Source of the DNA: Vicinamibacterales bacterium
Lineage (GTDB): Bacteria; Acidobacteriota; Vicinamibacteria; Vicinamibacterales; UBA8438
NCBI GenBank assembly: GCA_937766455.1
Contig: CALLXD010000016.1
Span: forward strand, 1 to 64,000
DNA length: 64,000 nt
Reading direction: 5' to 3'
Shown: positions 11,700-56,863 of the stretch, one piece after another
Numbering within the stretch: position 1 is the first letter of the stretch
How the letters are laid out: every line of letters begins with the position of its first letter
Program-made: the position numbers and the translations under genes
Notes under the pieces: generated by a model
The model's database searches: none
Seen by the model: the letters and a program-made list of their open reading frames with translations, nothing else
What the model was told of the DNA's origin: nothing

Positions 11700-11777
11700 T
11701 CAACAAACGTCCTATTGTACAAATGCTGGCTGGCCCCGGTCAATCAGGCCGGTACCGTATACTCGACAGACCGTCCG

Positions 11778-15105: not shown

Positions 15106-15110
15106 GCCTC

Positions 15111-16732: not shown

Positions 16733-16736
16733 TCAC

Positions 16737-18287: not shown

Positions 18288-18292
18288 TCGCC

Positions 18293-37851: not shown

Positions 37852-38355
37852 ATGCGACTCACCGCGGAACACCTCGCGCCGGTCACCTTCGTCGTCTTCG
37901 ACTTCGACGGGGTCTTCACGGACAACCGGGTGCTGGTCGATCAGGACGGCAGAGAGGCGGTGTTCTGCTCACGCGCTGACGGCCTGGGTCTCCAGGCTCT
38001 GCGTCGTCTGGGGGTCGGGTCGCTCATACTGTCCACCGAGACGAATCCGGTTGTGTCGGCGAGGGCCGTGAAGCTCGGCATTGAATGCGTCCAGGGGTTG
38101 GGCGACACCAAGTGGTCCGCCCTGCGTCAGATTCTTGCGGACCGGACGATTCCCGCCGAACAGGTGGCCTACGTCGGCAATGACATCAACGATTTGGACT
38201 GTTTGAGCCACGTAGGGGTGTCCATCTGCGTGGCAGACGCCTATCCCGCCGCCCTGGCGGCGGCTCGCTACGTTACCGAGCGGAACGGCGGACTGGGCGC
38301 CGTTCGTGAGGTGTGCGACCTGATAGTGGAGGCGCGCGAGGGTGTGTCGACGTGA
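37852..38355 (+). CDS. KdsC-like HAD phosphatase
   Basis: This 167-residue HAD protein of the C0 type has the nucleophile motif FDFDGVFTDNRV, then a second motif LILSTETN, the lysine GDTKWSALRQ and VAYVGNDINDLDCL for Mg binding. This pattern is shared by Kdo 8-phosphate phosphatase and by the phosphatase domain of some NeuA proteins. With NeuB- and NeuA-like genes in the same locus it probably dephosphorylates a keto-acid sugar phosphate. Its last codons overlap the next start (GTGA). Confidence 0.85.
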   Translation: MRLTAEHLAPVTFVVFDFDGVFTDNRVLVDQDGREAVFCSRADGLGLQALRRLGVGSLILSTETNPVVSARAVKLGIECVQGLGDTKWSALRQILADRTIPAEQVAYVGNDINDLDCLSHVGVSICVADAYPAALAAARYVTERNGGLGAVREVCDLIVEAREGVST

Positions 38356-39857
38356 GCACGGCGCCGGGCCTCGCCGCGGCTGAGGTTGTGTCTGCCCAGA
38401 ACGCGCGGCCGCCCTTGGCGGGAGTGGAGACGCCGCCATCACGGACGCTGTTTCTCTCAATGCCGGCCGGTCACCACGTTGCCGACCTGGCCCGCGGGCC
38501 GTTTCTTCGAACGTTGGTCAACGCCCGCCCGCGACCTCGAATCGTGGTGCTGTCTCCCTTCGCGTCCGACCCGCACCTTGTGTCGGAACTCGAGCGACAC
38601 GACATACCGTGTGTCGCGGTGTCCGCGTCGCCGCCCGGCCTCGCGGCCCGGGTCATCGACTCGATCCTGAGCGAGCGCTTTCTGCTTGACTCTGGTTTGC
38701 AGGCGGTTCGAATCCAGCGCGACCGCGCGCGTTTGATGGAGACATGGCGCGGCCGACGGACGCTCATCGGGCTCAAGGCTGCTGTCTGTCGGCTACCCGT
38801 GTCTAGACGCGCCTGGTTTCAGTGCGCCCAGTGGATGACCGACGTGTCTGTCTACCGGACTCTCTTCGAGACGCATCGACCCGCGTTGCTCGTGACGGCC
38901 ACCGCCGGCTTTCTTCCGATCGAGATGCCGCTCATCTATGCCGCCAAACGTTTCGGCGTGCCGCAGATGGGGGTGGATCTCGGGTGGGACAACCTGTCCT
39001 CGAAGTATCACACCGTGCTCCCGGTCGACTATCTGGCCGTCTGGAACGACACGATGCGTGACGAGGCAGTCCGCTATCACGGTTTTCGAGCTGACCGCGT
39101 CGAAGTGACGGGCCCGGTGCCATTCGATGGGTATTTCGGCGACGAGCCGATACCTACGCGAGACGATCTGTGCCGGTCGGTCGGTGCCGACCCGGCTCGT
39201 CCGCTGGTGACCTTGGCGACGGCGCCAGCCCAGGTGTACCCGACGACCGACAAGGTCGTGGAGATCCTCGCGCGAGCGGTCGAGGACGGGGCGCTTGACG
39301 CCGGTGTCCAACTGCTCGTGCGCGTGCATCCGCGTGACCACGCGGACCTCTACAGTCGGTTCCACGACGGTCGACGGGTCTTCGTCGAGAAGCCGTTTCA
39401 GCAACTCGAGCGCACTCCCGGGGCGCCGGAATTGGACTCTTTTACACCCGGGAGCGAGGGGCGCCGACGTCTGGCCGCCACGCTCGCCCACAGCGACGTG
39501 ATCGTGAACTTCGCCTCTACGACGACCGTGGAGGCGTCGCTCTTCGATACCCCGGTGGTGAACATCGGCTTCGACGATACAGCCGACCTGCCGCTTCCGC
39601 TTTCCATTGCGCGGTACTACCAGTTCGAACACTATCGACCGGTGGTAGAGACGGGAGCCGCGCACATTGCGACCAGCCCCGTCGACCTCGTGCGCGCGGT
39701 GGCGTTGTATCTGAATGACCCACGCACACACGCCGGCGGGCGCCGTGCGTTGGCGCGGCAGTGTTGCGCGTTCACGGATGGTCGGGCCGGTGAGCGGCTC
39801 GGAGACTGGGTGCTTGACACGCTCCTGTCGGTGCTCCCGGCCGGAGCACCGTCGTGA
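38352..39857 (+). CDS. GT-B-like surface glycan transferase
   Basis: From GTG 38352 the protein has 501 residues. It is related to the GT-B proteins encoded at 42555 and 45256: GVDLGWDNLSSKYHTVLP, YLAVWNDTMRDEAVRYHG with RVEVTGPVPFDGYF, LLVRVHPRDHAD, and VNFASTTTVEASLFDTPVVN. These elements resemble CDP-glycerol glycerophosphotransferase-like and UDP-GlcNAc-epimerase-like folds. The N-terminal 35 residues are probably unstructured. It is co-translated with the permease gene (GTGA overlap). The sugar it transfers is unknown. Confidence 0.65.
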   Translation: MSTAPGLAAAEVVSAQNARPPLAGVETPPSRTLFLSMPAGHHVADLARGPFLRTLVNARPRPRIVVLSPFASDPHLVSELERHDIPCVAVSASPPGLAARVIDSILSERFLLDSGLQAVRIQRDRARLMETWRGRRTLIGLKAAVCRLPVSRRAWFQCAQWMTDVSVYRTLFETHRPALLVTATAGFLPIEMPLIYAAKRFGVPQMGVDLGWDNLSSKYHTVLPVDYLAVWNDTMRDEAVRYHGFRADRVEVTGPVPFDGYFGDEPIPTRDDLCRSVGADPARPLVTLATAPAQVYPTTDKVVEILARAVEDGALDAGVQLLVRVHPRDHADLYSRFHDGRRVFVEKPFQQLERTPGAPELDSFTPGSEGRRRLAATLAHSDVIVNFASTTTVEASLFDTPVVNIGFDDTADLPLPLSIARYYQFEHYRPVVETGAAHIATSPVDLVRAVALYLNDPRTHAGGRRALARQCCAFTDGRAGERLGDWVLDTLLSVLPAGAPS

Positions 39858-40660
39858 GGGGAGGCAGCTACTCGCATGCAGGTCGCGGGCAAAGTCTTCG
39901 TTTGCTCATCCAACAGGGCTACTTGCTGGTGTTGCGGGACTTTCGGTTTCGTTATCGGCAAGCCTACCTGGGATACGTCTGGGCCGTCGCTCGCCCGGTG
40001 GCGGGCGTGTTGCCGCTGATTCTGGTGGGTAATGCCTTCCGGCTGGGCGGCGATATGGCCGCGGCCGAGTACGCCCTTTTCGCCATGGGCGGGTTCCTGA
40101 TGTGGCAGTTGTTCTGGGACTCGGTGATTTCGCCTCAATGGCTCGCCCGCCGGCTCCGGCGAACCTTCAAAGAAGCGCCACTTCGACCGGAATCTGTGGT
40201 CGCGGCCGGAGCCGGACTGGTGCTGTTCAACGCTTCGTTCTACGCCGGGATCTTCGTGCTGGCCTCGGCGCTGACCCAGACCGCGCCGCCAACGACGGTG
40301 TGGCTGGCGCTGCTGGCTGTTCCCGCCATCATCCTCGGCGGGTTGGCTGTCGGTGCCTTCTTCGTACCGCTGACGTTCGTCTATCTTGATTTTCGGTTCG
40401 CGCTGCCGCTGTTGTCTCCGTTTTTGCTTTGGACTGCGCCGATTCTCTACGCCTCTCCGCCCACGGGGATTCTGGCCGTGGTGAACCGCTGGAACCCGCT
40501 GACGTATCTGATCGATATTCCGCGTCAGTGGCTCGTGCGCGGCACGACCGGCGACGAACTGGTATTCCTGTCCTGCGCGATGGCGTTCGTCACCCTGTTT
40601 TGGTTGGGACTGTTTTTCCTGCGGCGGGCGATGCCGATTGCGGTGGAGAGCCTGCCGTAA
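39854..40660 (+). CDS. ABC-2 polysaccharide export permease (Wzm-like)
   Basis: This 268-residue protein has six predicted membrane helices and a basic cytoplasmic start (LVLRDFRFRYRQAYLGYVW), the hallmark of Wzm/KpsM permeases, with LGYVWAVARPV as the entry to helix 1. The end shows the NRWNPLTYLIDIPRQWLVRG segment typical of the family. It overlaps the ATPase gene by TAATG, so both subunits are made together. It would move lipid-linked glycan across the inner membrane. Confidence 0.9.
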   Translation: MRGGSYSHAGRGQSLRLLIQQGYLLVLRDFRFRYRQAYLGYVWAVARPVAGVLPLILVGNAFRLGGDMAAAEYALFAMGGFLMWQLFWDSVISPQWLARRLRRTFKEAPLRPESVVAAGAGLVLFNASFYAGIFVLASALTQTAPPTTVWLALLAVPAIILGGLAVGAFFVPLTFVYLDFRFALPLLSPFLLWTAPILYASPPTGILAVVNRWNPLTYLIDIPRQWLVRGTTGDELVFLSCAMAFVTLFWLGLFFLRRAMPIAVESLP

Positions 40661-42558
40661 TGTCTACAGTCGACACCGGAACGACGTTGCTCGACTGCGA
40701 CGACGTGTCGAAGATCTACTGCGACGAATTCACGCAGCGTCGCAAGCATGCCCTGCGTGACATTCTGTTCGGGGCGCCGCGGCATGGCCGGCTCAGGTCC
40801 GATGAGCGATTCGCGTTGCGTTCCTTCTCCGTGACCGTCAAGGCGGGCGAGAACGTCGCCGTGCTCGGCCTCCCGGGGGCCGGGAAGACGACCCTCGCCA
40901 GACTGGTGACGCGGATGTCGCGACCCGACGGCGGGATGATTCGTGTGCGCGGTCGGGTCGGTCTGGTGTTCAGCGGGAGGTTGGGCATGAATCCATTCCT
41001 CTCCGTGGATGAGTACGTGCGGCTGGCCGCCGCGATTCACGGAGCGGAGCCGGATATGGCCGACGCCTGTTGCGACGAGGCGTTGCACATCACGGGGCTC
41101 TCGGATCGTCGAGACGCCACGCTCGTTAACCTACCGAAGGGCGACGTGCGGTACCTGTCGCTGGCGGTGTCCCTCACCGTGCCCCAGGACCTGCGGGTCT
41201 TTGACAGTCTGCCAAATCTGGGACGCGACCCGGTGGGGGCCCGGCTGGCGGCTCGAATCCGTGAACATTTCGCGCGCGGCTCGAACCTGATCCTGGCTAG
41301 GACCACAACCGGGCTCCCGACCACCGTCTCTCGCGCGATCATCCTGCACGACGGCGATACGATGTATCAGGGTCGGCGCGAGACCGTCGTGACAATTTAC
41401 GACCACTTCGTCGCACGGCTGGCGCGCATCAGGCGGGCCGAACAGGCGGGCCGGGTGGCGGACACTCCGCCCACTGGGCACCCCGACGGGACTGACGGCG
41501 GCGCGAGCGTTGGTCCGCCCGCGGTCGAGGTGCCGCCACCGGCAGCAGTCATCGCGCGGGCCGTGCGGCGCTTCGATCACTCCCCCATCGCCTCGCTGGC
41601 GGAAGAACAGGTGGCGCAGGACTGGGCCAGCGACCGGCCAATTGTTCTCGGCCCTTTCCTGGCCGACGTTGCGTTCGAGATGTTGTACTGGCGGCCGTGG
41701 GTAGCCTGGATGCGGGCTTCGTTCGGGCCGCGGCGGGCACCGGTTATTGCCGTCTCGCGTGGCCGGGTCGACGCCTGGTACTCCGGCCTCGCCTCGGAGT
41801 ACGTCGATGTGTGTGACCTGGTTCCGTTCGAGACCTACCAAGCCCGCAATCGCGAGCGGGTCCGAGATACCGGCGACAAGCAGAACGTGGTGTCAGGTTT
41901 CGAGCAGGACCTGCTCGATCATGTGACGCGGCGGCTGGGCACCGCGGACGTCGCTGTGGTGCATCCGTCTGTGCTGTTTCGGCTCTGCTCGAAGGTCTGG
42001 CGGGGCGCATTGTCCAGCCAATGGCTGTCCGAGCACGCGCGATATGAGCACTTAGACACGAGTTCGGATGCGACACTCGCCGCCGTCCATGTCGCGGAGC
42101 CCTATGTCGCCGCCAGTTTCTGGTTCAATAGTTGCTTCTCGGATAGTCCGTTGCACCGGCGCGTCGTGCGTGACGTGTTGGCCGAGCTTAGCCAGCGTGT
42201 CGATGTCATCGTGGTTGACCAGGGCGGGGTTCACGGTTTGTTCGACTCGATCCAAGCCGGCGACCGGGTCCGGGTAATGAAGTCCGCCGAGACGGACGAT
42301 CGAATCCGTGAACAGGCGAGGGTGGTCGCCGGCGCGCGCGCGTTCGTCGGTACGTTCGGGGGCCTTTCGCTGATGGCGCCGTTCTACAACGTCCCCACCT
42401 CTCTCCTGTTTGGGGCTGAGGTGGGGTTGTTCCCGCAACACGCGGCTGTCTCGCGTGGCATGGCTGGGGCCATGCCGGACCTGCCTTACGAACTGACGAA
42501 AACGGCCGATTTTGACTCGGGGCATCTGGGTGCCTGGGTCGACCGGACTCTGGGATGA
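40660..42558 (+). CDS. Wzt-like ABC ATPase fused to an unnamed C-terminal module
   Basis: The 632-residue protein has an ABC domain at about 10-245. Walker A is intact (GLPGAGKTT, 70-78) and GRVGLVFSGRLGMNPFLS corresponds to the Wzt Q-loop region. The other motifs are degenerate: the signature reads NLPKGD instead of YSSGM/LSGGQ, Walker B reads RVFDSLP (catalytic Glu replaced by Ser) and the switch region reads ILARTTTG without histidine. A Pro/Gly linker (265-305) leads to a module (325-620) with PIVLGPFLADVAFEMLYW, VIAVSRGRVDAWY, VVHPSVLFRL and VGTFGGLSLMAPFYNVP, also found in the proteins at 42555 and 47947. It occupies the place of the Wzt glycan-binding domain. Confidence 0.75.
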   Translation: MSTVDTGTTLLDCDDVSKIYCDEFTQRRKHALRDILFGAPRHGRLRSDERFALRSFSVTVKAGENVAVLGLPGAGKTTLARLVTRMSRPDGGMIRVRGRVGLVFSGRLGMNPFLSVDEYVRLAAAIHGAEPDMADACCDEALHITGLSDRRDATLVNLPKGDVRYLSLAVSLTVPQDLRVFDSLPNLGRDPVGARLAARIREHFARGSNLILARTTTGLPTTVSRAIILHDGDTMYQGRRETVVTIYDHFVARLARIRRAEQAGRVADTPPTGHPDGTDGGASVGPPAVEVPPPAAVIARAVRRFDHSPIASLAEEQVAQDWASDRPIVLGPFLADVAFEMLYWRPWVAWMRASFGPRRAPVIAVSRGRVDAWYSGLASEYVDVCDLVPFETYQARNRERVRDTGDKQNVVSGFEQDLLDHVTRRLGTADVAVVHPSVLFRLCSKVWRGALSSQWLSEHARYEHLDTSSDATLAAVHVAEPYVAASFWFNSCFSDSPLHRRVVRDVLAELSQRVDVIVVDQGGVHGLFDSIQAGDRVRVMKSAETDDRIREQARVVAGARAFVGTFGGLSLMAPFYNVPTSLLFGAEVGLFPQHAAVSRGMAGAMPDLPYELTKTADFDSGHLGAWVDRTLG

Positions 42559-45259
42559 AGATTCTCTTTTCGATGCGGCACCCGGGAGCGCTTCGGAACT
42601 TCGCATCCACCGTGCGGGAACTGGCCAAGCGCGGACACCATGTGCACCTCGCCTTTGTCATGCAGGACAAGCTTGGTGATGGGCGTCTGCTGTGGGACCT
42701 GACCGACGACTACGCGAACATCACGCATACGGAACTCGCCAAGAAGAAGACGCCGTACCGCTTCTGGCTCGGCTTGGCCCGGGGTGTCCGTTTCTGGAGT
42801 GACTATCTGCGGTATCTCGCGCCCGAGTATCGGGATGCGGACAAGCTGCGAGACCGGGCGCAGTTGCGTCTTCCGAGGTCTCTGGTCGGCGTCAGCAAAT
42901 TGCCGCTGGTCAATAGCGCGGTAGGCCGGCGGCTGCTCTGGACGCTGCTGCTGTGGATCGAGCGGGCGATCCCGACGGATCGGTGGGTGGACGCGCTCAT
43001 TGCGTCCCAGCAGCCGGATGTCGTGCTGGTGACGCCGCTTGTCGACCTGGGGTCCGACCAGGCCGACTATGTCAAGAGCGCCCGTGCCCTTGGGATTCGG
43101 ACCGGCCTGTGCGTCCATAGCTGGGACAACCTGACCAACAAGGGACTCATCCGGATCGCTCCTGACCGGGTGTTTGTGTGGAACGAGTCGCAAAAGGAGG
43201 AGGCCGTCGACATGCACGGTCTCCGGCCGGAGCAGGTCCTGGTCACCGGGTCGCCGGTGTATGACCAGTGGTTCGCTCGTGACGCAAGCACCACGCGTGA
43301 AGAGTTTTGCTCCAAGGTCGGCTTGCCGGCCGACCGTCCGTTCTTGGTGTATCTCTGCTCGTCCGGCTTCATTGCGCCGAATGAGGCGGCGTTCGTCGAG
43401 CGCTGGGTACGGGAGCTGGCGAAGGCCGACGACGAGCGGGTTCGGAATGTGTCCATCCTGGTGCGACCGCATCCCCAGAACCTGCAGCCGTGGCACAAGT
43501 ACGACTTTGCCGAATTCGATCATGTCTCGGTCTGGCCGGCGGGCGGCGACAACCCCGTGGACGTGGCGTCAAAGAACGATTTCTACGACTCGCTCTTTCA
43601 CAGCGCGATGGCAGTCGGCGTGAACACCAGCGCCCAGATCGAGGCTGGCATCGTCGGGCGTCCCGTGTTCACAATCCAGACCGAGGAGCATGTCGGGACG
43701 CAGGAAGGGACGTTGCACTTCAAGTATCTGCTCGAAGCCGGAGGCGGGCTGCTGCAGAACGCGCACGATTTTGACGAACACGTGGGGCAGATCTCCCACG
43801 CGTTCGACCAGCGGGAGGAGGCTGAGGCGAAGCTCCGGGGGTTCATCGAGGCGTTTGTTCGCCCCAAAGGGCTCGACGTGCCCGCGACACCGTTGATCGC
43901 GGACGGCATCGAGGCACTTGGAAATCTTCCGAGTCCGTCCGCCGCCGGCACCCCGGCCTGGTTGTTCCCACTGAGGTGGGGGCTGTACCCGGTGGCCATT
44001 GGCCTGAAGCTCGCCAGGGAATTTACCCGCACGTCGCGCAAGCGGCAACGCCAGCTACGACCCTTGACACTCGGTGGGATGGTGCTGAAACCCATTTTCT
44101 CCGCGCTTGATGTGTGTCTCCGATGGCGGCCCGCAAAGAGTTTCGTCAAGAAGTATGTCGTGCCGCGCGTCGTGCCGCGAATGAGTTCGGATGAGCCAAC
44201 CGAAGAGATGGTCGCCATTCCGCGCATCATCGACAAGTTGCACCACGGGGCACAGCCGCTCATCGTCGGGCCCTGGCTGAGCGAAGTTGGGTTCGAGATC
44301 TTGTACTGGTTGCCGTTCCTGCGTTGGGTGAAGACCTATCGGCATTTCGACCCGGAGCGGCTAATCATCGTTTCTCGCGGTGGCGTGGCTCCCTGGTACG
44401 AGGGTATTGGCGCCCGGTACATCGACGTCTTTGACTTCTTCACACCTGCGCAGCTCAAACAGCGAAATGACGAACGAATCGCGGAAGGGCAGATGAAGCA
44501 GCGGGCCCTGACGGAGTTTGACCGCGAAGTGGTCAAACTCGTCAAGCTGGCGGTCGAACGTCGGGATGCGGAACTGTTCCACCCGATGTACATGTATCGA
44601 CTGTTCTACCCGTACTGGAAGAGTCGGGCGTCGATCAACCTCATCGAGTCGTTCTCCAATTTCGAACGCTTGCCGCCGATTGACGCGTCCGATGTGACGT
44701 CCCATCTGCCCGACGACTATGTGGCGGTTCGCTTCTACTACAACAGTGCGTTCCCGCAGACCGAGGAGAACTGGGATTTTGTTCGCCGACTTCTGACCCG
44801 CGTGACCGCGATCACTGACGTCGTGCTGCTCAACCCGGGTTCATTGTCGACGATCACTGGGACCTGAAGCCTGACGTGACGCGACGGGTACATAGCATCG
44901 ACCACTTGTTGGAGCCCCGGAACAATCTGGCGGTGCAGACCAAGGTCATCAGTGGCGCGCGAGCCTACGTCGGCAACTATGGAGGACTGTCGTATGTTGC
45001 CCCGTTCTACGGCGTGCGGTCGCTCGCCTTTTATTCGAGTCCGGAGCATGTCGCGCCCCATCATCTCGACCTGATGTATCGCGCGGCCGCCAAGCTGCGG
45101 CGAGGATCGTTCGTCGCGCTCGACGTGCATTCCCTTGACCTCCTGAGCCTGGTCGTGGAGGGGCACGAGATAGACCCGTCACCGGAACTTCCCGGGGGGA
45201 ACGGAAGCGAAGCTGAGCGGTCGACCGGCGAACCAGCCCAGAGGGAGTCTGTCGGGTGA
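42555..45259 (+). CDS. GT-B-like transferase with C-terminal shared module, frameshifted
   Basis: The N-terminal part (1-480) begins KILFSMRHPGALRNFAST and has CVHSWDNLTNKGLIRIAP, VLVTGSPVYDQWFA, ILVRPHPQNLQPWH and GVNTSAQIEAGIVGRPVF, a GT-B pattern shared with the next gene. From about 566 it carries the shared module: PLIVGPWLSEVGFEILYW, LIIVSRGGVAPWY, LFHPMYMYRL and YVAVRFYYNSAFP. A one-base deletion near 44842 (GGTTCA where GGTTTCA is expected) breaks the frame; the rest is in the frame ending at 45259 with FIVDDHWDLKP and VGNYGGLSYVAPFYGV. The full length is about 901 residues. Each part is intact, so an indel error is plausible. Confidence 0.7.
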
Positions 45260-46854
45260 GGGTGCTCTTTGTCCTCCAGTACCCGGGGTATCTCCGGTAC
45301 TTCGACTCGGTGCTGGAGGGGCTGTGTCAGCGTGGCCACGAAGTCGCCGTGGCCTTTGACTTGCCACACAAACAATCTGAAGGGCTTCGGGCCCTCGACA
45401 CGATCGACGGCGAGATTGAGCTGCTCGGGATGGTGCCTCGGCGGCCGGATATCTGGGCCCGCGTCGCGCGCGGCGTGCGTGGCTCCATCGACTACGCGCG
45501 GTACTTGCATCCTCGGTTCGAGCATGCGCCGTATCTGCGCGATCGCATGCGCAAGGCGCTGCCGCCCCTCACGCGGTTCTTGGGACGATGGACCACCACT
45601 ACCGCAGGGCGGACCCGCCGCCTGATCCGTCTGTTCCAAACGTGCGACCGGGTGATACCCAGTAGCCCCGTCCTCGAGACGTTCTTGCGCCAGGCCCGCC
45701 CGGATGTCTTGGTCGTCTCACCGCTCGTGACCGACCAGTCACCTCAAGTTGACCTGATCAAGGCGGCGCGGAAGGTGGGTGTGTGTAGTGCGCTGTGCGT
45801 TGCCTCGTGGGATCACCTCACGACCAAAGGGCTGATGCGAATTCAGCCCGATCTGGTGGCACTGTGGAACCATGACCAGCGTCGAGAGGCCATCGACTTT
45901 CACGGGGCTGACGACGAACGGATCGTGGTCACCGGCGCACAGTGTTTCGATCGCTGGTTCGCCAGAACTCCTCGCAGGTCGCGCGAGGCGTTCTGCCATG
46001 CGGCGGGCTTGGATCCGAAGCGCCCGTTTGTGGTGTTTGCGGGGTCGACTGCTTCCATTTCAGCGCCCGAGGCCGAGGTTAGGTTCGTCAAGCGTTGGAT
46101 CGAGGCGGTGCGGCAGGGACCTGGGTCCCTCGCCGAGGTGGGGATTCTGATCCGTCCTCATCCCTACAATTCCGCCCATTGGAGCAAGGTCGACGTGGGG
46201 GCATACCCCGGGGTCACGGTGTATCCTCGTCACGAGGCCAATCCAGTCGACAATGACGACCGCGCCGACTATTACGACACACTGCATCACGGGGCGGCCC
46301 TCGTCGGGATCAATACGTCGGCGATGATCGAGGCCGGTATTCAGGACCGACCGGTATTCACCGTCGTCGATTCGTCGTTCGACGACACCCAAACCGGGAC
46401 GCTGCACTTCCGCTATCTCCTGCCGGAGAACGGCGGTCATCTCCAGCGAGCCACGTCGCTGGAGGAGCATGCCCGGCAGCTGTCGACGTCCATCGACGAG
46501 GGCGCTGCGCCGTCATCCCGCCAGTTCATCGAGAGGTTCGTACGTCCGAATGGGCTGGATACGGCGTCCACGCCACAGTTAGTGACCGCGCTTGAAGGGC
46601 TCGGCGACGCGGCGCCGAGCCAGCCAGACAGTGTGCCCCTGTATCTGTGGCCACTCTGGGCCGCGTTGTGGGCGATAGCGGCGGCGGCCGACGCGCCGCA
46701 CGCCAGACGGCGCTGGCTGAAGGCACGGCACCGCATCAAAGGACAGCTGTGGCGGGCTTTCAAGACGAAGCGTAAAGACTTCAGGAAATGGCGAGAACGT
46801 CGGCGGCGCATGGCCAAGAAGGCCAGGGCCAACGCGCGTGGTGGCACCGTATGA
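45256..46854 (+). CDS. GT-B-like glycan transferase (paralogue of 42555 N-terminus)
   Basis: This 532-residue protein starts at GTG 45256 with RVLFVLQYPGYLRYFDSVL. It matches the N-terminal half of the preceding protein: CVASWDHLTTKGLMRIQPD, IVVTGAQCFDRWFART, ILIRPHPYNSAHWSK, GINTSAMIEAGIQDRPVF and GTLHFRYLLPENGGHL. It lacks the C-terminal module and ends in a basic region (RRRMAKKARANARG) that could contact the membrane. The pair looks like a tandem duplication. The donor is unknown; related folds use CDP- or UDP-linked substrates. Confidence 0.7.
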   Translation: MRVLFVLQYPGYLRYFDSVLEGLCQRGHEVAVAFDLPHKQSEGLRALDTIDGEIELLGMVPRRPDIWARVARGVRGSIDYARYLHPRFEHAPYLRDRMRKALPPLTRFLGRWTTTTAGRTRRLIRLFQTCDRVIPSSPVLETFLRQARPDVLVVSPLVTDQSPQVDLIKAARKVGVCSALCVASWDHLTTKGLMRIQPDLVALWNHDQRREAIDFHGADDERIVVTGAQCFDRWFARTPRRSREAFCHAAGLDPKRPFVVFAGSTASISAPEAEVRFVKRWIEAVRQGPGSLAEVGILIRPHPYNSAHWSKVDVGAYPGVTVYPRHEANPVDNDDRADYYDTLHHGAALVGINTSAMIEAGIQDRPVFTVVDSSFDDTQTGTLHFRYLLPENGGHLQRATSLEEHARQLSTSIDEGAAPSSRQFIERFVRPNGLDTASTPQLVTALEGLGDAAPSQPDSVPLYLWPLWAALWAIAAAADAPHARRRWLKARHRIKGQLWRAFKTKRKDFRKWRERRRRMAKKARANARGGTV

Positions 46855-47921
46855 CTGATTCCGGTTCGACCACGGACCTGCTGGTCGCCGCCGACGCAGC
46901 GGCCGCGGCGTGGGAGGCGCGCCTTGCGGCCATGCGCGACCAACCGGTGTATCGCTCCTACGAGCGCACCCGGCGACGGGTGCTCGCTCTGTTGTCACTG
47001 GGGCGAAACCGGAGGCTAACGGGCCACGCGCCAAGTGACTATTGGTCTGGTGAACTGGACAAGTTCGAATACATGCTGGACGCCTCGCCCCTCATTGTCG
47101 AGAAGCTGAGACTTCACACCCACAACCTCACCGGGCTGCACGCGAACCAGTATCGAGATTCCCTACGAAAACATCGGCGCCGGTTCCGAGAGAAGCTCGA
47201 GGCCTTACGGGCATTGGATGAAGTCGACCTCTGGGTTCCCGAGCCACGGCTGCTCGGCGGCTTCGGGTTCGACATCGGCGGTCAACTCGTCAACCTCGAT
47301 ACGCTCAAGTTCTACGAGGTCCTGATCGCGATGCACCTGGGCGCCGTGCTCACTGAGTTGCGCGAGACGACGGAGCGTAAGCTCGTCTGGGAGATCGGCG
47401 CGGGGTGGGGCGGGTTCCCCTACCAGTTCAAGAAACAGTGTCCGAACGTCACGTACGTCATTACCGATTTTCCGGAGCTGTTTCTGTTCTCAGCGACGTA
47501 CCTGATGGCCGCCTTCCCCGAGGCGAAGGTCCGTTTCTTTGGCGAGGTCCCGGCCGAGGACACCTTCGACGGTTGGCGCGACCTGGATTTTATTTTCATT
47601 CCGGACACGTTCCACGCTACGTTGCGTCCCGAGCAGGTCGACCTGCTGATCAACATGGTCTCGTTTCAGGAGATGACGACTCAGCAGGTTGACGGGTACG
47701 TGCGCCGCGCCTTCGACCTCGGTTGTCCATACCTGTACAGCCTGAACCGGGATCGGTCGGGCCACAACGCCGAACTGACCAACGTGCGGTCGATCATTGA
47801 AAAATACTACTGGCCGCATCCGGTCGACATGTTGCCCGTGAGCTACACCAAAATGCTGAACGAGGACCCCGACGAAGGGGACAGTGGCTACAAGCATGTG
47901 GTCGGCTGGCGGCGCGTCTAA
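46851..47921 (+). CDS. Putative sugar O-methyltransferase
   Basis: From ATG 46851 the protein has 356 residues. Its core is LVWEIGAGWGGFPYQFKKQ (SAM motif I), VTYVITDFPELFLFSATYL and FIFIPDTFHATL, followed by INMVSFQEMTTQQVDGYV and PYLYSLNRDRSGHN. This combination belongs to the putative sugar O-methyltransferase family found in surface glycan clusters. The N-terminal region has KFEYMLDASP and HNLTGLHANQYR. It could methylate a glycan residue as a modification or as a chain cap. Confidence 0.8.
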   Translation: MTDSGSTTDLLVAADAAAAAWEARLAAMRDQPVYRSYERTRRRVLALLSLGRNRRLTGHAPSDYWSGELDKFEYMLDASPLIVEKLRLHTHNLTGLHANQYRDSLRKHRRRFREKLEALRALDEVDLWVPEPRLLGGFGFDIGGQLVNLDTLKFYEVLIAMHLGAVLTELRETTERKLVWEIGAGWGGFPYQFKKQCPNVTYVITDFPELFLFSATYLMAAFPEAKVRFFGEVPAEDTFDGWRDLDFIFIPDTFHATLRPEQVDLLINMVSFQEMTTQQVDGYVRRAFDLGCPYLYSLNRDRSGHNAELTNVRSIIEKYYWPHPVDMLPVSYTKMLNEDPDEGDSGYKHVVGWRRV

Positions 47922-47946
47922 GGCCACGAGTCGGGACACTGCCACT

Positions 47947-50154
47947 ATGACCTCGCCGCGGGTGGTGATCGGCGCGCCTCTCTACAACCACGCAGCAGAT
48001 CTGCCGGAGACCATCGAATCGCTACTGACGCAGTCGTACCGGGAGTTCACGTTGGTGTGTGTCGACGACCAATCCAGCGATGCGACCGGAGAGATCGTCG
48101 AATCGTACGCGGCTCGGGATTCCCGCATCGTCTACGTGCGGAATGCCACTCGACTGGGGATGATCGACAATTGGCGGCTGGCGTTCGACCTGGCCCTGGA
48201 GCAGAGTCCAGACGCGGCCTACTTTGCGTGGGCCAGCGATCACGATGTGTGGCATCCGCGGTGGTTGCGCGTGCTGGTCGATGTGCTCGATCGACACCCG
48301 GAGGTGGTGCTGGCGTATCCGCGCAACCGACGGATCGGGCCCGACGGCGTCGTCATCGACAAGCGTCCCTGGCAATTCGACACGGCCGGTGTCGACGCTC
48401 TGAGAGTCCGCTTCAGGCGGACGATGAGCGACATGTCTGCCGGCAACATGATCTACGGGTTGGGCCGTTCCGACGCGATCCGACGCGCCGGTGTGTTTCG
48501 CCACGTGTTGGTTCCAGACCGCTTGTTGCTCATGGAGTTGTCCCTGGAAGGGCAATTCAAACAGGTGCCGGAGGTGCTGTGGTTCCGGCGCTGGCACGGA
48601 CAGTTCTTCAGTTTGCAGCGACAGCGTCACGCATTCTTTCCGAACGGCCGGCCGCTGTACGCGTATGTGCCGTGGTGGATCAGTCACGCGAGCGCGCTGA
48701 CCTGGATTCTCGGCGTACGCGCCGCGCGAGCGCCCGGTATCGGTCGATGGGCGGGGGTCCGGCTCGGCGGTCGGTACTTGCGGCTGGCGGGACTGCTGCA
48801 TTTCCGGCAGGAGCTGAAGGCGTTCCGCATCGAACTGTTCGAGCGCGCGACGTTCCTGAAGCCGATCTACGTGCGGAGTCGGAATCTCTACCGGGGCGTC
48901 ATACGGCACACTGGGCTCGACGCGTTGTCGGGACGCTGGAGCAAATCGTTCGGTGACGCGATCCGGAGGCGGAGGCTGGTGCGACTGGTGAAACGAAAAG
49001 CGCGGACGGCGGCTAACGAGGCGATCGGTTCGGGGCGGTATCTGCTGCGTGCAGTACGTGCGCTCCCACTCATGCAGAGCCGGGTCATTCCGTGGCTCGT
49101 GCGTCAGGAGATCGACGAGGTGCCAGCGGGCCGCGAGGTCGGTTTGATGAAGCGGGCACTCCGAACGGTGGTCAAGAGCCGGAAGCCGATCATCGTGGGA
49201 CCGTGGCTGTCAGAGGTTGGGTTTGAGGTGTTGTACTGGATTCCATTCCTCACCTGGGCAGTGAAGGAGTTCGACATCGATCGCGACCGCCTGATCGTGG
49301 TCTCGCGCGGCGGAGCCGACGTCTGGTATCGGGACCTCGCCGAACACTACGAAGACATCTTCGACCTGATGTCGGTCAAGGATTACCGCCACCGCAACGA
49401 GGAGCGGTGGTCGGAGGGAGGCAATCAGAAACAGATGGCCCCCTCCGCATTCGATGACGATATTGTCGATCTCGTCAAGGCGCGACGTGGGCTGTCAGAC
49501 GTGGCCGTCTTGCATCCGTCGGTCATGTACCGCCTGTTTCGATATTTCTGGTACGGCAAGGGTGCGATCAGTCTGCTCGAGAAGCACGCGGTCTATCGTC
49601 CGATGCCTGCCATTGACCGCGGCCCCGCCCTGGAGGGGCTCCCCGCGGAATATGCCGCCGTGCGGTTCTACTTTCGACCCTCGTTTCCCGATTCAACGGA
49701 GAACCGCGCGCTGATTGGGCAGTTTGTCCAAGCGTTGTCCCGGCGGATGCCGGTGGTGTTGCTGAATCCGGGCCTGAGCCTCGATGACCATGAGGACTTC
49801 GACCCCGGGACCGGGAAGGGCGTGCACAAGATCGACCACCTGATGACGCCGACGACCAACCTGCAGGTGCAGAGTGCGGTCATCGCGCACGCGCGCGTTT
49901 TTGTTGGCACCTACGGCGGCTTGTCGTACCTGGGACCCTTCTATGGAGTACCCTCCATCGGGCTCTTTTCGTATGAGAGCGAGCTCGTAGCGACGCACCT
50001 GGACATATCCCGGCGGCTGTCCCGTCGTTTGGCAGCCCCGCTCGTCACGCTCGATATACGAGAAGTGGCGATGGTTGAGATGCTGTTCGATACCTTGCAC
50101 CGCGACAGCGGAACCACGAGCGCTCCGCGAGCGCCTGTGGCCCCGGCGTCCTGA
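47947..50154 (+). CDS. GT2 glycosyltransferase with C-terminal shared module
   Basis: The 735-residue protein starts at ATG 47947. Residues 1-270 are a GT2 domain: RVVIGAPLYNHAADLPETI, LVCVDDQSSDATGEIVESY, YFAWASDHDVWHPRWL (DxD-type SDHD) and later LEGQFKQVPEVLWFRRWHG. A basic helical linker follows. The module begins near 412 with PIIVGPWLSEVGFEVLYW and continues with LIVVSRGGADVWY, YRHRNEERWSEGGNQKQM, AVLHPSVMYRL, AAVRFYFRPSFP and VGTYGGLSYLGPFYGVPS. It is the best preserved of the three modules in this locus. Two transfer activities in one chain are possible. Confidence 0.75.
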   Translation: MTSPRVVIGAPLYNHAADLPETIESLLTQSYREFTLVCVDDQSSDATGEIVESYAARDSRIVYVRNATRLGMIDNWRLAFDLALEQSPDAAYFAWASDHDVWHPRWLRVLVDVLDRHPEVVLAYPRNRRIGPDGVVIDKRPWQFDTAGVDALRVRFRRTMSDMSAGNMIYGLGRSDAIRRAGVFRHVLVPDRLLLMELSLEGQFKQVPEVLWFRRWHGQFFSLQRQRHAFFPNGRPLYAYVPWWISHASALTWILGVRAARAPGIGRWAGVRLGGRYLRLAGLLHFRQELKAFRIELFERATFLKPIYVRSRNLYRGVIRHTGLDALSGRWSKSFGDAIRRRRLVRLVKRKARTAANEAIGSGRYLLRAVRALPLMQSRVIPWLVRQEIDEVPAGREVGLMKRALRTVVKSRKPIIVGPWLSEVGFEVLYWIPFLTWAVKEFDIDRDRLIVVSRGGADVWYRDLAEHYEDIFDLMSVKDYRHRNEERWSEGGNQKQMAPSAFDDDIVDLVKARRGLSDVAVLHPSVMYRLFRYFWYGKGAISLLEKHAVYRPMPAIDRGPALEGLPAEYAAVRFYFRPSFPDSTENRALIGQFVQALSRRMPVVLLNPGLSLDDHEDFDPGTGKGVHKIDHLMTPTTNLQVQSAVIAHARVFVGTYGGLSYLGPFYGVPSIGLFSYESELVATHLDISRRLSRRLAAPLVTLDIREVAMVEMLFDTLHRDSGTTSAPRAPVAPAS

Positions 50155-50192
50155 CGCGGCCACACTCACTCTGACTCGGACATCACACCGCG

Positions 50193-51311
50193 ATGATTCT
50201 TTCAACCGACGATCTCAAGAACTATCACGGCCGCGTCGCGATGGTCGACGGCGCGTTCGATCCACTGCACCACGGTCACATCGCGTACTTTCGCGCGGCA
50301 CGCGCGGTGGGGGCGAAGCTGCTGTGCAACATCGCGCCAGACAGCTACGTGTCGGCGAAGCACCCGCCGTTGCTTGAGGCATCTCGTCGCGCCCAGGTGA
50401 TCGATGCGCTGGCTGACATCGACTACACGCATGTCAGCCAGTCAGACACCGAAACCGTGCTGCGCGAGCTGCGCCCCACCCACTACATCAAGGGTGCGGA
50501 CTGGGCCGGGCGCCTGCCACCCGAGCAGGAGCGAATCTGCGCGGAACAGGGCACCGAGATTGTCTTGCTCGATACGGTCCGCGATTCGTCTACGGAACTG
50601 TTGCGTCGATACCGCCCGCCGTCGCCCGATGGCGAGGGTGAAGTGAGCGCGTTCGAACAGCTCGTGGCCGACCAGCGCCCCGTCGAGTCTGGCCACTATG
50701 ACGCCGAGTATTTCGTGAGCGACTGGCGCGAGGGGAACAACGACTACACGATCGAGGCGCGTCGAAAAATAGAAGGACGCCATCCCGCCGTCATCAAAGA
50801 GGTGTTCGAGCCGACCCGAGTGTTGGACGTGGGATGCGGTCCCGGTGTCTTGTTGTTTCTGTTACAGGAACAGGGCGTGCTGGCGGACGGAGTCGACTTC
50901 AGCCCGAGTTGCAAGGAACTCGCTCCGCCAGAGGTCAAGGAGCGGATCAAGATCGGCACCACGGCGGACCACGCGCTGTTCGCCGACGACTCGTACGACC
51001 TCGTCATCTGTCGTGAGGTGATGGAGCATCTGACCGTGCTCCAGGTCCGGGATACGGTCCGCAACCTGTGCCGGGTCAGTTCGCGGTATGTCTATGTCAC
51101 GACCCGGTTTCACCCGAACCCGGCCGGGCTGCTGGATGTGACGACGCAGTTTGAGGTCGACCCTTCGCACATCACGCTACTCAACAAGGACTTCCTGCGG
51201 GTCATGTTCGTGCTCGAGGGGTTTCGGAGACGGCTCGATCTGGAGTCCGCCATTGACTGGATGGGCAAGGGTCGGGTGCTCGTGTACGAGAGATCGGGGT
51301 CGTCAGAGTGA
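50193..51311 (+). CDS. Cytidylyltransferase-methyltransferase fusion
   Basis: The 372-residue protein has two domains. Residues 10-145 are a nucleotidyltransferase of the TagD/RfaE2 type: VAMVDGAFDPLHHGHIAYF with the HxGH motif HHGH, YIKGADWAG and VRDSSTELLRRY (SST motif). From about 165 a class I methyltransferase follows: RVLDVGCGPGVLLFLLQEQ (motif I), DGVDFSPSC, and YDLVICREVMEHL. The combination could activate a sugar or polyol phosphate with a nucleotide and methylate the same or a related product. It overlaps the next gene by GTGA. Confidence 0.75.
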   Translation: MILSTDDLKNYHGRVAMVDGAFDPLHHGHIAYFRAARAVGAKLLCNIAPDSYVSAKHPPLLEASRRAQVIDALADIDYTHVSQSDTETVLRELRPTHYIKGADWAGRLPPEQERICAEQGTEIVLLDTVRDSSTELLRRYRPPSPDGEGEVSAFEQLVADQRPVESGHYDAEYFVSDWREGNNDYTIEARRKIEGRHPAVIKEVFEPTRVLDVGCGPGVLLFLLQEQGVLADGVDFSPSCKELAPPEVKERIKIGTTADHALFADDSYDLVICREVMEHLTVLQVRDTVRNLCRVSSRYVYVTTRFHPNPAGLLDVTTQFEVDPSHITLLNKDFLRVMFVLEGFRRRLDLESAIDWMGKGRVLVYERSGSSE

Positions 51312-52258
51312 GCGAGCGGACCATGAGTCGGCCCGGGCGTGCGGATGGCGTGCTCGGCTATCATCTCAATCCCCTGACCTGCGGGGTCGCGAAGTTCAAC
51401 CTGCTTCTGGCGCGTCACCTCGAGGTGCCGATGCTGAGTCTGTTCGACGACCAGGCTGCCTCGATGGCGCATCCCGTGCTGTCGCTGAAGCAGTCCGAGT
51501 TTTCGGACGCCGACAGCGCGACACTCGCCCAGCTGCTCGACACGGCGTCGTGGCGGCACGGGTTCAGTCTGTTTCTGCACGCGTGGACCGATACGGACGT
51601 CGAGCGGACGTTGTTGTCGCGGGCCGCCACGGTGTACTGCGGCAATGCGGAGCTTGTCGCCAAATTACGAGTGCACCGACCCGATGTACAGGACTCCTGG
51701 TGCCCATCCACCTTGCTTGAGCCGCAGCGCTTTCGGTCGGGAGGACTCTCCGTGTTCGCGTTTGGTATGGCGCACAAAGTGCGGTCTGAGCTGCATCGGA
51801 CAGTGCACGCGTTGCTTGAGCGGACGGGCCAGTCGTACTCCGTGTATCTGTCGACGGCGTTGCACGAGGGCACCGCGTTCGATGAGCGGTTCACGGTGGT
51901 GTTCGATGAGCTGCAGGAGATCTACGGTGACCACATCTTCTTTCTTGGCTACATGTCCGACACCGCGGTCTACAACTACTTGATCGATACAACGTTCTTC
52001 GCCGCGTTCTTCGACAAAGGGGTGCGGGCCAACAACACAACGGTCAACGCCGCGATGGAGTGCGGGTCGGTCGTGCTAACCAATTTCGACGACTATTCCC
52101 CCTCGGTCTTCGACCACATGCACAATGTGATCGACATTCATCGGTGCGAGACGCTGCCGACGGATCCGGAGACGCTGCAGTCAATCGGCGATCGCGCGCA
52201 GACGACGGCGTCCGGCGCATTGGGTTGGGGCGCGCTGGTGTCCCAGATGCGCGGCTAG
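51308..52258 (+). CDS. Glycosyltransferase-like protein (GT4-type fold)
   Basis: This 316-residue protein begins GVLGYHLNPLTCGVAKFNLLL, where the GVAKF segment resembles the N-terminal loop of GT4 enzymes, and has FAFGMAHKVRSELHRTVHALL, YLSTALHEGTAF and AAFFDKGVRANNTTVNAAME with CGSVVLTNFDDY. The last segment fits the donor-binding helix of GT-B enzymes (E-x(7)-E replaced in part). It starts at GTG 51308. The family assignment is moderate and the sugar is unknown. Confidence 0.55.
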   Translation: MSERTMSRPGRADGVLGYHLNPLTCGVAKFNLLLARHLEVPMLSLFDDQAASMAHPVLSLKQSEFSDADSATLAQLLDTASWRHGFSLFLHAWTDTDVERTLLSRAATVYCGNAELVAKLRVHRPDVQDSWCPSTLLEPQRFRSGGLSVFAFGMAHKVRSELHRTVHALLERTGQSYSVYLSTALHEGTAFDERFTVVFDELQEIYGDHIFFLGYMSDTAVYNYLIDTTFFAAFFDKGVRANNTTVNAAMECGSVVLTNFDDYSPSVFDHMHNVIDIHRCETLPTDPETLQSIGDRAQTTASGALGWGALVSQMRG

Positions 52259-52562
52259 CGGTCCGTGGCGAGAGTCCAGCGTCGCACCGAGACCCTGGGT
52301 TCGCAGTACCGGGCCGGCCCGGTGCCAGGCGAGAAGAGCGAGAGACCGGCAGAATGTGACCGATGAACGATGCAGGTCGGCCGGATTCAGCGTCGGTCGA
52401 ATGCAGCGGGACAACGGCACACATGGGGCGTGTGTGACCGCGGAAAAAGCACATGGACGCGGATGCCCGCCGCGAACGTAAGAGGCGAACCACGGCCGCG
52501 GGGTACCCGTGTCGTGTACGGCCCACCGTTTTCACTGACACCTCGACGAGGAGGACCGGACG
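52259..52562 (+). other. Intergenic region before neuB
   Basis: About 300 bases without a convincing gene. The end carries the strong ribosome binding site GAGGAGGA eight bases before neuB. No clear promoter, terminator hairpin or repeat was recognised, though the gap suggests a separate transcription unit starts here. Confidence 0.4.
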
Positions 52563-53633
52563 ATGTCGCGCGAATTGAAGCTGGGACGGCAGGTCGTCAA
52601 CGATGACAGCCCCGTGTACGTCATTGCCGAGGTCGGGCATAACCACCAGGGCAATATCGAGACGGCGAAAGAAATGTTCCGGCAGGCGCAGTCCTGCGGA
52701 GCCAGCGCGGTCAAGTTGCAGAAACGGGACAACCGGGGGCTCTTTACCCAGGCCGCTTTCGACAAGCCGTACGAGAACGAGAATAGCTTCGGCGCCACCT
52801 ACGGCGAGCACCGCGAGGCCCTCGAATTTGGCCGCGACGAGTATGCCGAGCTGAAGGTGTACGCGGCCGAGTTGGGGCTCGATTTCTTTGCCACCGCGTT
52901 TGACATCCAGAGTGCGGACTTTCTTGAAGCGTTGGAGATGCCCGCGTACAAGATCGCGTCCGGCGACCTGCGGAATCTACCGCTCATGCGCCATGTGGCC
53001 GCGTTCGGGAAGCCGATCATCGTGAGCACCGGCGGGGGCACCTTGGATGACGTCGAACGTGCCTATGAGGCCGTCATGGCGATCAATACGCAGCTCTGCA
53101 TCATGCAGTGCACCTGCGGCTATCCAGTGGAGTTCGACGAACTCAATTTACGGGTCATCGAGGCCTATCGCGAGCGATTCCCAGACATCGTCATCGGGTA
53201 CTCGGGGCACGATAACGGTATTGCCATGCCGGTGGTGTCGTATGTGCTGGGGGCGCGGATCATCGAGAAGCACTTCACGTTGAACCGGGCGATGAAAGGG
53301 ACGGACAACGTCTTCTCGCTCGAGCCGGTGGGCATGCGGAAAATGATTCGTGACCTGGACCGCGCCAGACGCGGTCTGGGAGACGGCAAGAAGGTCGTGT
53401 TTGCCAGCGAAGCAGGACCTGTATTGAAGATGGGCAAGAAGCTCGTCGCGGCGCAGGACCTGCCGGCCGGACGGCGGCTGACCGAGGACGACGTGGCCGT
53501 CAAGTCGCCTGGTGACGGGCTCGCGCCCGTCGAGATCGGCCGAGTGATCGGGGCGGTGACCAAAGTGGCGCTCGCCAAGGACGACTCGCTGTCGCTCGAG
53601 CAGCTTGAGCTTTCAGATAAGGCCGTGAGTTAG
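52563..53633 (+). CDS. neuB: N-acetylneuraminate synthase-like NeuB
   Basis: NeuB-family enzymes condense phosphoenolpyruvate with an aldose to make a nonulosonic or related keto-acid sugar. The 356 residues have VYVIAEVGHNHQGNIETA, AVKLQKRDNRGLF, FFATAFDIQSADFLE, AYKIASGDLRNLPL, IVSTGGGTLDDVE and IGYSGHDNGIAMPVVS with a metal-site histidine, then IIEKHFTLNRAMKGTDN. A C-terminal SAF domain starts near 285 (LVAAQDLPAGRRLTEDDVA), as in NeuB and SpsE. A strong ribosome binding site precedes it. It heads the NeuB-SDR-ALDH-NeuA-transketolase series. Confidence 0.92.
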   Translation: MSRELKLGRQVVNDDSPVYVIAEVGHNHQGNIETAKEMFRQAQSCGASAVKLQKRDNRGLFTQAAFDKPYENENSFGATYGEHREALEFGRDEYAELKVYAAELGLDFFATAFDIQSADFLEALEMPAYKIASGDLRNLPLMRHVAAFGKPIIVSTGGGTLDDVERAYEAVMAINTQLCIMQCTCGYPVEFDELNLRVIEAYRERFPDIVIGYSGHDNGIAMPVVSYVLGARIIEKHFTLNRAMKGTDNVFSLEPVGMRKMIRDLDRARRGLGDGKKVVFASEAGPVLKMGKKLVAAQDLPAGRRLTEDDVAVKSPGDGLAPVEIGRVIGAVTKVALAKDDSLSLEQLELSDKAVS

Positions 53634-53652
53634 ATTCGCGGGTTAGATTCGG

Positions 53653-54489
53653 ATGGACGATCAGTTTAGGCTCGACAACACCGTCGCTGTAGTGACGGGC
53701 GCTTCCGGCAACCTGGGGCCCATTTGGGTGGGAGCCCTTCTGGACGCGGGCGCGCGGGTGTTCGCGCTCGACCTGGAGCGGGCGGTGGTGAGCCCAGGTC
53801 TGGATGCGCTGTTGGAGCGGTATGCGCAGCCGACATCGTCCACGCCCGGTCCGCGGCTACGTCTCCACCGCGCCGACGTGATGGACAAGGAGTCGCTGGT
53901 CGCGGCCCAGGCGGCGTGCGCCGAGTCAATGGGAGTGGCGACGGTTCTGGTCAACAACGCGGGCATTGACCAGCCGGCCTCGACAGACGGGGCGACCTCC
54001 TACCGGATGGAGGATGTCCCGATGGCCGCCAGCCGGGCGATTCTCGAGGTCAATACCCTGGGGACGTTTCAGGTGTCGCAGGTGTTTGGGGCCGAGATGG
54101 TCAAGGCGCGGCGTGGCTCGATCATCAACATCGGATCGCTCTATGCCAGTGTGTCCCCGGACCTCCGACTCTATGCGCACATGAACCTGGACCCCCCATT
54201 CCTGAAACCACCGGCTTACGGTGCATCGAAAGCGGCCGTGGTGAACCTCACCCGGTATCTGGCCACTGCGTGGGGACCATACGGCGTGCGGGTGAATACG
54301 CTGTCCCCCGGGGGCGTGCTCGGTGCTCAAGACCCGGAGTTTCAGCGTCAATTCAACGACCGGGTGCCCCTCGGCCGCATGGCTGAGGCCAACGATCTGA
54401 CCGGGCCACTCCGGTTCCTGGCCTCTGAGGCCTCGGCCTATATCACCGGCAGTGAGCTGCGGGTCGACGGCGGATTCACCGCTTGGTAG
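53653..54489 (+). CDS. SDR-family oxidoreductase
   Basis: This 278-residue short-chain dehydrogenase has the cofactor loop VAVVTGASGNLGPIWVGA, VLVNNAGIDQP, the catalytic serine in IINIGSLYASV, and the catalytic YGASKAAVVNL. It ends SEASAYITGSELRVDGGF. An unusual insert (LRLYAHMNLDPPFLKPPA) lies between the serine and tyrosine motifs. Cofactor preference is not certain. Its place after neuB suggests reduction of a keto-sugar or sugar-acid intermediate. Confidence 0.88.
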   Translation: MDDQFRLDNTVAVVTGASGNLGPIWVGALLDAGARVFALDLERAVVSPGLDALLERYAQPTSSTPGPRLRLHRADVMDKESLVAAQAACAESMGVATVLVNNAGIDQPASTDGATSYRMEDVPMAASRAILEVNTLGTFQVSQVFGAEMVKARRGSIINIGSLYASVSPDLRLYAHMNLDPPFLKPPAYGASKAAVVNLTRYLATAWGPYGVRVNTLSPGGVLGAQDPEFQRQFNDRVPLGRMAEANDLTGPLRFLASEASAYITGSELRVDGGFTAW

Positions 54490-54611
54490 CGCTAGAACTG
54501 AGGCCGTCCGCCCCGACGCTGCCCCGGCAGGGTCTTGAGGTCCACCCAGGCGACCGGGTCTGAAAGCCCGGCCCCCTCAGTCTCCACACACTCCAGGAGG
54601 ACCACATCGCG

Positions 54612-56088: not shown

Positions 56089-56101
56089 CGTGGTGACGCC
56101 G

Positions 56102-56857
56102 ATGCCAGCCGAGCCATCCTGCGTCGCGTTCATTCCGGCGCGCAGTGGATCGACGCGCGTGCCTGGCAAAAATATCCGCGCGTTGGGTGGACACCCACTC
56201 ATCGCCTACACCATTGCGAGTGCGCTGGATTCCGGCGTCTTTGGGGCGGTCGTGGTGTCGACCAATGACGAGGCGACGGCTGACATCGCAAGACACTACG
56301 GGGCCGAGGTGCCGTTTCTCAGGCCTGCGGCGATGGCTGGGTCCCGGTCGCCCGACATCGAATGGGTCGAGCACGGGCTCGGCGCACTGGAGGACGCGGG
56401 CCGGGTATTTGAGTGTTTCGCGATTCTCAGACCGACCAGCCCGTTCCGCACAGCCGAGACGGTGCGTCGAGCCTGGTCCACGTTTCGAGCTGCCGATGGC
56501 GTCGACTCGCTTCGCGCCGTGGAGCGAGTACGTCAGCACCCAGGCAAGATGTGGGTGATCCGCGGCGATCGACTACTGCCCCTCTTGCCGTTCGGACCGT
56601 CCGAACAGCCGTGGCACAGCAGCCAGATGCCGTCGCTCCCAGAGGTCTGGGTGCAGAATGCGAGCCTCGAGATTGCCTGGAGCCGGGTGGCGCGTGACGG
56701 GCACACCATCGCTGGTCACACGCTGGTGCCGTTCAGGACGGACGAGCGCGAAGGGTTCGACATCAACGAGCAATGGGATTGGCGACTCGCCGAAGAGTTG
56801 GTTGCCAGTGGGGACTGGACGTTGCCGCCCGTGACCCGGGCGGCGTTTGGAGGATGA
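56102..56857 (+). CDS. NeuA-like CMP-sugar cytidylyltransferase
   Basis: This 251-residue protein has the nucleotide-binding CVAFIPARSGSTRVPGKNI, AVVVSTNDEATADIARHYG, FLRPAAMAGSRSPDIEWV and FAILRPTSPFRTAETVRRA, the order seen in CMP-NeuAc/CMP-legionaminate synthetases. It ends FDINEQWDWRLAEELV. Starts at GTG 56090, GTG 56093 or ATG 56102 are all possible. Its job would be to attach CMP to the keto-acid sugar made by the upstream NeuB. Confidence 0.87.
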   Translation: MPAEPSCVAFIPARSGSTRVPGKNIRALGGHPLIAYTIASALDSGVFGAVVVSTNDEATADIARHYGAEVPFLRPAAMAGSRSPDIEWVEHGLGALEDAGRVFECFAILRPTSPFRTAETVRRAWSTFRAADGVDSLRAVERVRQHPGKMWVIRGDRLLPLLPFGPSEQPWHSSQMPSLPEVWVQNASLEIAWSRVARDGHTIAGHTLVPFRTDEREGFDINEQWDWRLAEELVASGDWTLPPVTRAAFGG

Positions 56858-56863
56858 ATCGAG

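Follow-up and report, generated by a model that had tools for sequence, protein, structure and literature searches.

An ABC ATPase, a GT-B protein and a GT2 protein encoded in one operon of a Vicinamibacterales bacterium all end in a module of about 300 residues, which almost certainly represents a GT-B, GT9-like family. This family is apparently undescribed; it is related to GT9 and lies outside Pfam's GT9 membership. The explanation we favour, with moderate confidence, is a transferase family sister to GT9 whose ABC-linked copy has turned into a non-catalytic sensor or dock.

Three module copies in one operon

The window analysed here is the 64,000-nucleotide stretch at positions 1 to 64,000 of contig CALLXD010000016.1. 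All three copies were located where the preliminary description had placed them, and pairwise BLASTP gave 30-43% identity among them: the GT2-linked and ABC-linked copies shared 37% over 283 aa (E 1e-57, the best value), the GT2-linked and GT-B-linked copies 43% over 197 aa (E 2e-56), and the ABC-linked and GT-B-linked copies 30% over 201 aa (E 5e-36). The three segments are thus homologous far beyond chance, as the claim of a common region had implied, and all four shared motifs that were quoted with it are found in the module copies. Chance or recent gene duplication as the source of the similarity was ruled out by this level of identity together with the sorting of copies by partner across genera. 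In the GT2 protein the module begins at nt 49183, which is residue 434 of the long ORF or about residue 412 from the likely ATG. The window's genome contains these three copies only, the two halves of the GT-B-linked copy matching separately. The ORF of the latter gene carries a one-base frameshift near 44840 and stops at 44867, after which the module resumes in another frame and runs to about 45133-45256. Since the same gene is intact at this site in five relatives, the frameshift is either a sequencing or assembly error of the draft genome (78 contigs, 85% complete) or a recent loss.

Features of the module operon in the window
Feature	Position	Strand	Remarks
Operon around the modules	37852..58810	+	KdsC-like HAD to transketolase
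KpsM-like ABC-2 permease	39854..40660	+	directly upstream of the pseudo-NBD
ABC ATPase (pseudo-NBD) with module	40660..42558	+	module from residue 326; ATG overlaps permease stop
Walker A GLPGAGKTT, intact	40867..40893	+	also intact in orthologues with the start present
ABC signature site, LPKGD for YSSGM	41131..41145	+	
Walker B LRVFDS, catalytic Glu to Ser	41191..41208	+	Gly in most orthologues
Switch His to Thr215 (LART)	41302..41304	+	
Module copy 1, ABC-linked	41635..42534	+	E, SR, WY, K and HP kept; D-x-H loop and N234 missing
GT-B protein with first two thirds of module copy 2	42555..44867	+	module from residue 567
GT-B protein, N-terminal part	within 42555..44867	+	BFO_1060/CDP-glycerol-transferase-like, weak matches
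Module copy 2, GT-B-linked	44253..45145	+	two frames, one-base frameshift near 44840
GT2 glycosyltransferase with module	47884..50154	+	PF00535, E 9.7e-24
Module copy 3, GT2-linked	49183..50097	+	copy used for the structure model
D-x-H, D209 and H211 (modelled-segment numbering)	49783..49791	+	nearly invariant outside ABC-linked copies
RfaE/HldE-type nucleotidyltransferase fused to methyltransferase	50193..51311	+	co-occurs with the module

The operon encodes, in order, a KdsC-like HAD protein, a GT-B protein, the permease, the ABC protein, two GT-B proteins, a sugar O-methyltransferase and the GT2 protein, followed by the RfaE-like nucleotidyltransferase/methyltransferase (RfaE-MT), an unknown protein, NeuB, SDR, ALDH, a CMP-NulO-synthetase-like protein and transketolase; within the window's operon family, the order from permease through transketolase is conserved over genera. 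The domain to which copy 2 is fused and the GT-B neighbours at 38313 and 45256 weakly match BFO_1060-type/CDP-glycerol-transferase-like GT-B proteins (NF046086, PF04464), far under the curated cut-offs and with the module itself outside the matched parts. The adjacent NeuB, SDR, ALDH, CMP-sugar synthetase-like and transketolase genes at 52563-58810 may together constitute a nonulosonic or ulosonic acid pathway of an unusual kind. Elsewhere the window holds LPS core and lipid A genes (11715-19297: Kdo transferase, LpxK, an acyltransferase and two true GT9 genes) and a Mutator-family transposase (22693-23979).

The tightest companion of the module was the RfaE-like gene. In a 347-genome sample of the phylum, an RfaE-MT orthologue occurred in 8/8 module genomes versus 1/339 of the others, and in the sole genome having it without the module, a relative that is 72% complete, it lies at the end of a contig. 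The hypergeometric value of 1.9e-15 ignores kinship and is overstated because the co-occurrence reflects about three lineages, and the link may be just co-inheritance of one operon type.

The module adopts a predicted GT-B fold related to GT9

Searches in Pfam, NCBIfam, PHROG and PDB sequences gave no family matching the module, and a PDB sequence profile search found no relative. Placement inside a named Pfam, NCBIfam or PHROG family is thereby ruled out, and the absence of any curated match agrees with its description as unnamed. The AlphaFold2 model of the GT2-linked copy (pLDDT 93.2, pTM 0.91) showed, in Foldseek comparison, a GT-B fold with two Rossmann-like halves. The top PDB matches (E about 3e-5 to 6e-4) included TibC, a GT9 of Veillonella, WaaF/WaaC and UDP-GlcNAc 2-epimerases. 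GT9 heptosyltransferases, TibC among them, make up most of the nearest solved structures, followed by the epimerases. TM-scores against solved GT-B enzymes were modest (0.3-0.5), perhaps from differing angles between the two halves. A viral library search with the module likewise returned GT9/RfaF/TibC. The GT-B fold that the preliminary description had proposed to look for in structure models was thus found; the model and the Foldseek matches do not support its alternative of a lectin fold, and a lectin or novel-fold reading is rejected on their account. The GGLS...PFY segment, which it had likened to a GT-B donor-side loop, falls in the donor-side helix region of the predicted fold.

At the sequence level the relation to GT9 is faint. 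PF01075 matched the window copy with 13.5 bits (E 0.045) and did not reach the curated cut-off of 22 bits, and its marginal matches covered 8 of 65 module members (best E 0.016). The search for a well-described glycosyltransferase family thus left the module under Pfam's GT9 cut-off and without a family in the other libraries searched. Direct hhalign comparison with the GT9 profile was weak (prob 13, 48 columns, C-half only). When six weak genome matches from the margin of the profile search were scanned, all six were GT9-like, five of them above the PF01075 cut-off and one, L118, just under it. L118 (L118:1222-2325), from the class sample drawn around a Rhodospirillaceae genome, stands between the module and GT9: hhalign gave prob 93.5 and E 2e-7 against the module profile, and E was 2.7e-6 against the GT9 profile, with a module-like N-half (LIAGPFVGEFGWELMGW...VLSRPE) and a GT9-like C-half (SSGPMHLA). 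It may mark a further unnamed glycosyltransferase family. Because L118 joins both groups and the nearest structures and weak matches are GT9, we regard the module as a remote sister of GT9 in the GT-B superfamily.

The module has the GT-B fold in common with GT9 heptosyltransferases (PF01075; WaaC, WaaF, TibC), and a helix-strand unit of the C-half is alike in both (NLxVQ..IAxARAFVGTxGGLSxLxPFxGVP in the module, L..L..LL..A..FVSxDSGPMHLAAALGxP in GT9). However, where GT9 has the DSGPxHxA donor motif the module has GGLSxLxPF, and alignments show no equivalent of the GT9 KRWP lysine. The first N-half loop of GT9 contains GD (LGD, catalytic Asp); the module has G-x-E, whose invariant E23 lies in the corresponding loop with an offset of one residue. 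GPWLSEVGFExLYW, VSRGG...WY and D-x-H are motifs of the module's own.

Distribution and partners of the module

About 75 module ORFs were gathered, with 65 full-length copies from public genomes. Carriers are a few Acidobacteriota from soil and aquatic habitats, and elsewhere they are rare. In the 347-genome sample, true copies were present in 8 genomes only, several in each; four further matches were short, with E near 1e-4, and scanning of two of these showed GT9. Genomes reached by the public scan had one to seven copies each, and a complete Rhodospirillaceae chromosome gave four matches, one of them partial. Broad samples of the class of this Rhodospirillaceae genome and of the phylum of a Chloroflexi-labelled bin yielded no true copies beyond the seed genomes. 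One contig with the acidobacterial-type operon, L012 (CALQBJ020000018.1), is labelled Bifidobacterium breve and is probably a mislabelled bin.

The partners of the module are a BFO_1060-like GT-B domain, which is the most widespread, GT2 and the ABC ATPase; stand-alone module genes have just a short N-terminal extension, in places coiled-coil-like. One 1521-aa ORF containing ambiguous bases (L025:4246-8808) encodes a single chain of a GT-B domain, the module and another GT-B domain. In the tree, module copies sorted largely by partner: ABC-linked copies formed one group (support 91/71), GT-B-linked copies nearly one group, and GT2 fusions grouped with one stand-alone gene, L050 (99/99). L050 adjoins a short unfused GT2-like ORF and therefore shows how module fusions can form or split.

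A second operon family contains clustered stand-alone and GT-B-linked copies, up to six per genome. In genomes G244 and G228 a stand-alone copy directly follows a canonical wzt-wzm pair, and separate canonical Wzt genes occur in the module clusters of G244, G228 and an Auribacter genome. With the ATPase fusion present in several genomes, the repeated Wzm/Wzt linkage that had been anticipated was thus observed, and the module is linked to export in two forms, by fusion and by adjacency to wzt-wzm.

Degeneration of the ABC-linked proteins

The NBD motifs of the ABC fusion were aligned with the Wzt-type ATPase of solved structure 8dku, its best match (E 3e-17), and with KpsT. The signature, catalytic Glu and switch His were degenerate in all aligned orthologues, the partial L012 included, and the NBD motifs of the relatives' separate Wzt genes were intact. 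The C-terminal part of the ABC protein gave no Pfam match to the Wzt C-terminal carbohydrate-binding domain. A Wzt query found no second NBD on the window's contig; contig C44 carries an intact Wzt-type gene (G000:C44:17231) accompanied by a permease of its own. Modelled at full length, the ABC fusion gave a low-confidence structure (pLDDT 58.6, alignment of 7 sequences). In genome G001 only short pieces of the ABC-module gene remain (L039, about 15594-15750), flanked by an intact permease and a GT-B gene, which is either a real loss or an assembly fault.

Ten positions were invariant in 66 module copies (G14, P15, E23, W27, P29, S49, R50, W56, Y57 and P120). The ABC-linked copies replaced, as a group, positions that were more than 90% conserved in the 58 other copies: D209 is changed to G, H211 is deleted and N234 is changed to Q, and W16, G52 and G263 are also replaced. 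The D-x-H loop was assigned to the donor half by the order of secondary structures and not from a ligand-bound structure. The ABC-linked copies retain the N-half residues E23, SR, WY, K91 and H119 as well as most of the GG..PF segment. Purifying selection acts on both halves of the ABC fusion, with a dN/dS of about 0.27-0.30 for the closest pair. Their non-synonymous sites evolve 2-4 times faster than those of the GT-B fusion, the rate being higher in every pair, and the fusion is also faster than the GT2-linked module in 4/4 pairs.

Discussion

Stand-alone genes and strictly conserved putative active-site residues argue for an enzyme role of the GT-B-linked, GT2-linked and stand-alone copies, for which glycosyltransferase activity is likely judging from sequence. 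These modules would transfer a sugar activated by the same cluster. The prime donor candidate would be the compound made by the linked RfaE-MT, an assignment that we consider possible and somewhat doubtful. Fusion would place two successive transfer steps of surface-glycan assembly on one polypeptide at the cytoplasmic side. The ABC-linked copy would descend from the same domain by loss of the D-x-H loop and N234 with retention of the N-half residues, and, with an ATPase half that also lacks the residues which hydrolysis requires, would serve the KpsM-like permease as a sensor of glycan ends or as a dock, at the site where Wzt carries a carbohydrate-binding module. Anatomy and residue loss give this non-catalytic role about an even chance. 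Of the glycosyltransferase or glycan-binding role first suggested for the module, the transferase part fits the non-ABC copies, and the binding part is unsupported as far as it implied a lectin fold. Similarly, a common recognition or docking part is plausible for the ABC-linked copies only, because the conserved C-half residues are lost there; the GT-B-linked, GT2-linked and stand-alone copies look enzymatic.

The retained E23 could give ABC-linked copies residual activity. If all copies were active glycosyltransferases, the ATPase fusion would tether a late (capping) transfer to the exporter, in keeping with the preserved SR, WY, K91, H119 and GG..PF residues and with purifying selection. 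The joint loss of D209, H211 and N234 and the faster non-synonymous change of the ABC fusion relative to the GT-B-linked copy make this unlikely. The opposite extreme, a non-catalytic recognition or docking part in every protein as first proposed, accounts for one module on both exporter and assembly enzymes and for the Wzm/Wzt gene linkage; it is improbable given the complete predicted GT-B fold, the invariant polar and aromatic residues and the abundance of stand-alone genes, with as many as seven copies per genome. UDP-GlcNAc 2-epimerases among the Foldseek matches would suit a GT-B fold with other chemistry, such as a non-hydrolysing NDP-sugar 2-epimerase, but GT9 proteins are nearest by sequence and this reading would leave unexplained why each cluster has many diverged copies attached to different transferases, so that we give it very little credence. 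We favour a transferase family with a putatively retired ABC-linked member.

As in Wzm/Wzt and KpsM/KpsT exporters, a KpsM-like permease adjoins here and the NBD bears an extra C-terminal domain. In Wzt proteins this C-terminal binding module checks the chain end before export (PMC11231755); it is a carbohydrate-binding module, whereas the extra domain of the ABC fusion is GT-B-like. Compared with the Wzt/KpsT NBD, the fusion kept Walker A but lost the signature, the Walker B Glu and the switch His; in KpsMT, E151Q alone is enough to abolish capsule secretion (PMC11041684). We tentatively propose that the exporter's sole clustered NBD is a pseudo-ATPase with a retired glycosyltransferase turned export checkpoint, with the energy for transport coming from an NBD whose gene lies elsewhere or from another source. 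Multi-domain glycosyltransferases such as WbbB, KpsC and Klebsiella O7 ORF6 take part in ABC-dependent glycan assembly (PMC11231755, PMC10148158). They carry several transferase modules for successive steps on one chain, as here, but in the present case one module family occurs on several partners, the transporter ATPase included. The open-licence papers searched contained no account of the module or of an ABC ATPase/glycosyltransferase fusion, which is weak evidence.

The module adds to the surface-glycan enzymes an apparently undescribed GT-B family that is related to GT9 but separate. Its ABC-linked copy suggests, from sequence features, a retired transferase on a pseudo-ATPase, an enzyme turned sensor or dock at the export gate. 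It is a natural case of a transferase domain on an exporter ATPase with catalysis seemingly lost, on an NBD that lacks a residue which KpsT cannot do without. If this is correct, two questions would become testable: by what means an exporter with no classical binding module recognises a completed glycan, and how ABC export of a polysaccharide proceeds when the NBD is degenerate.
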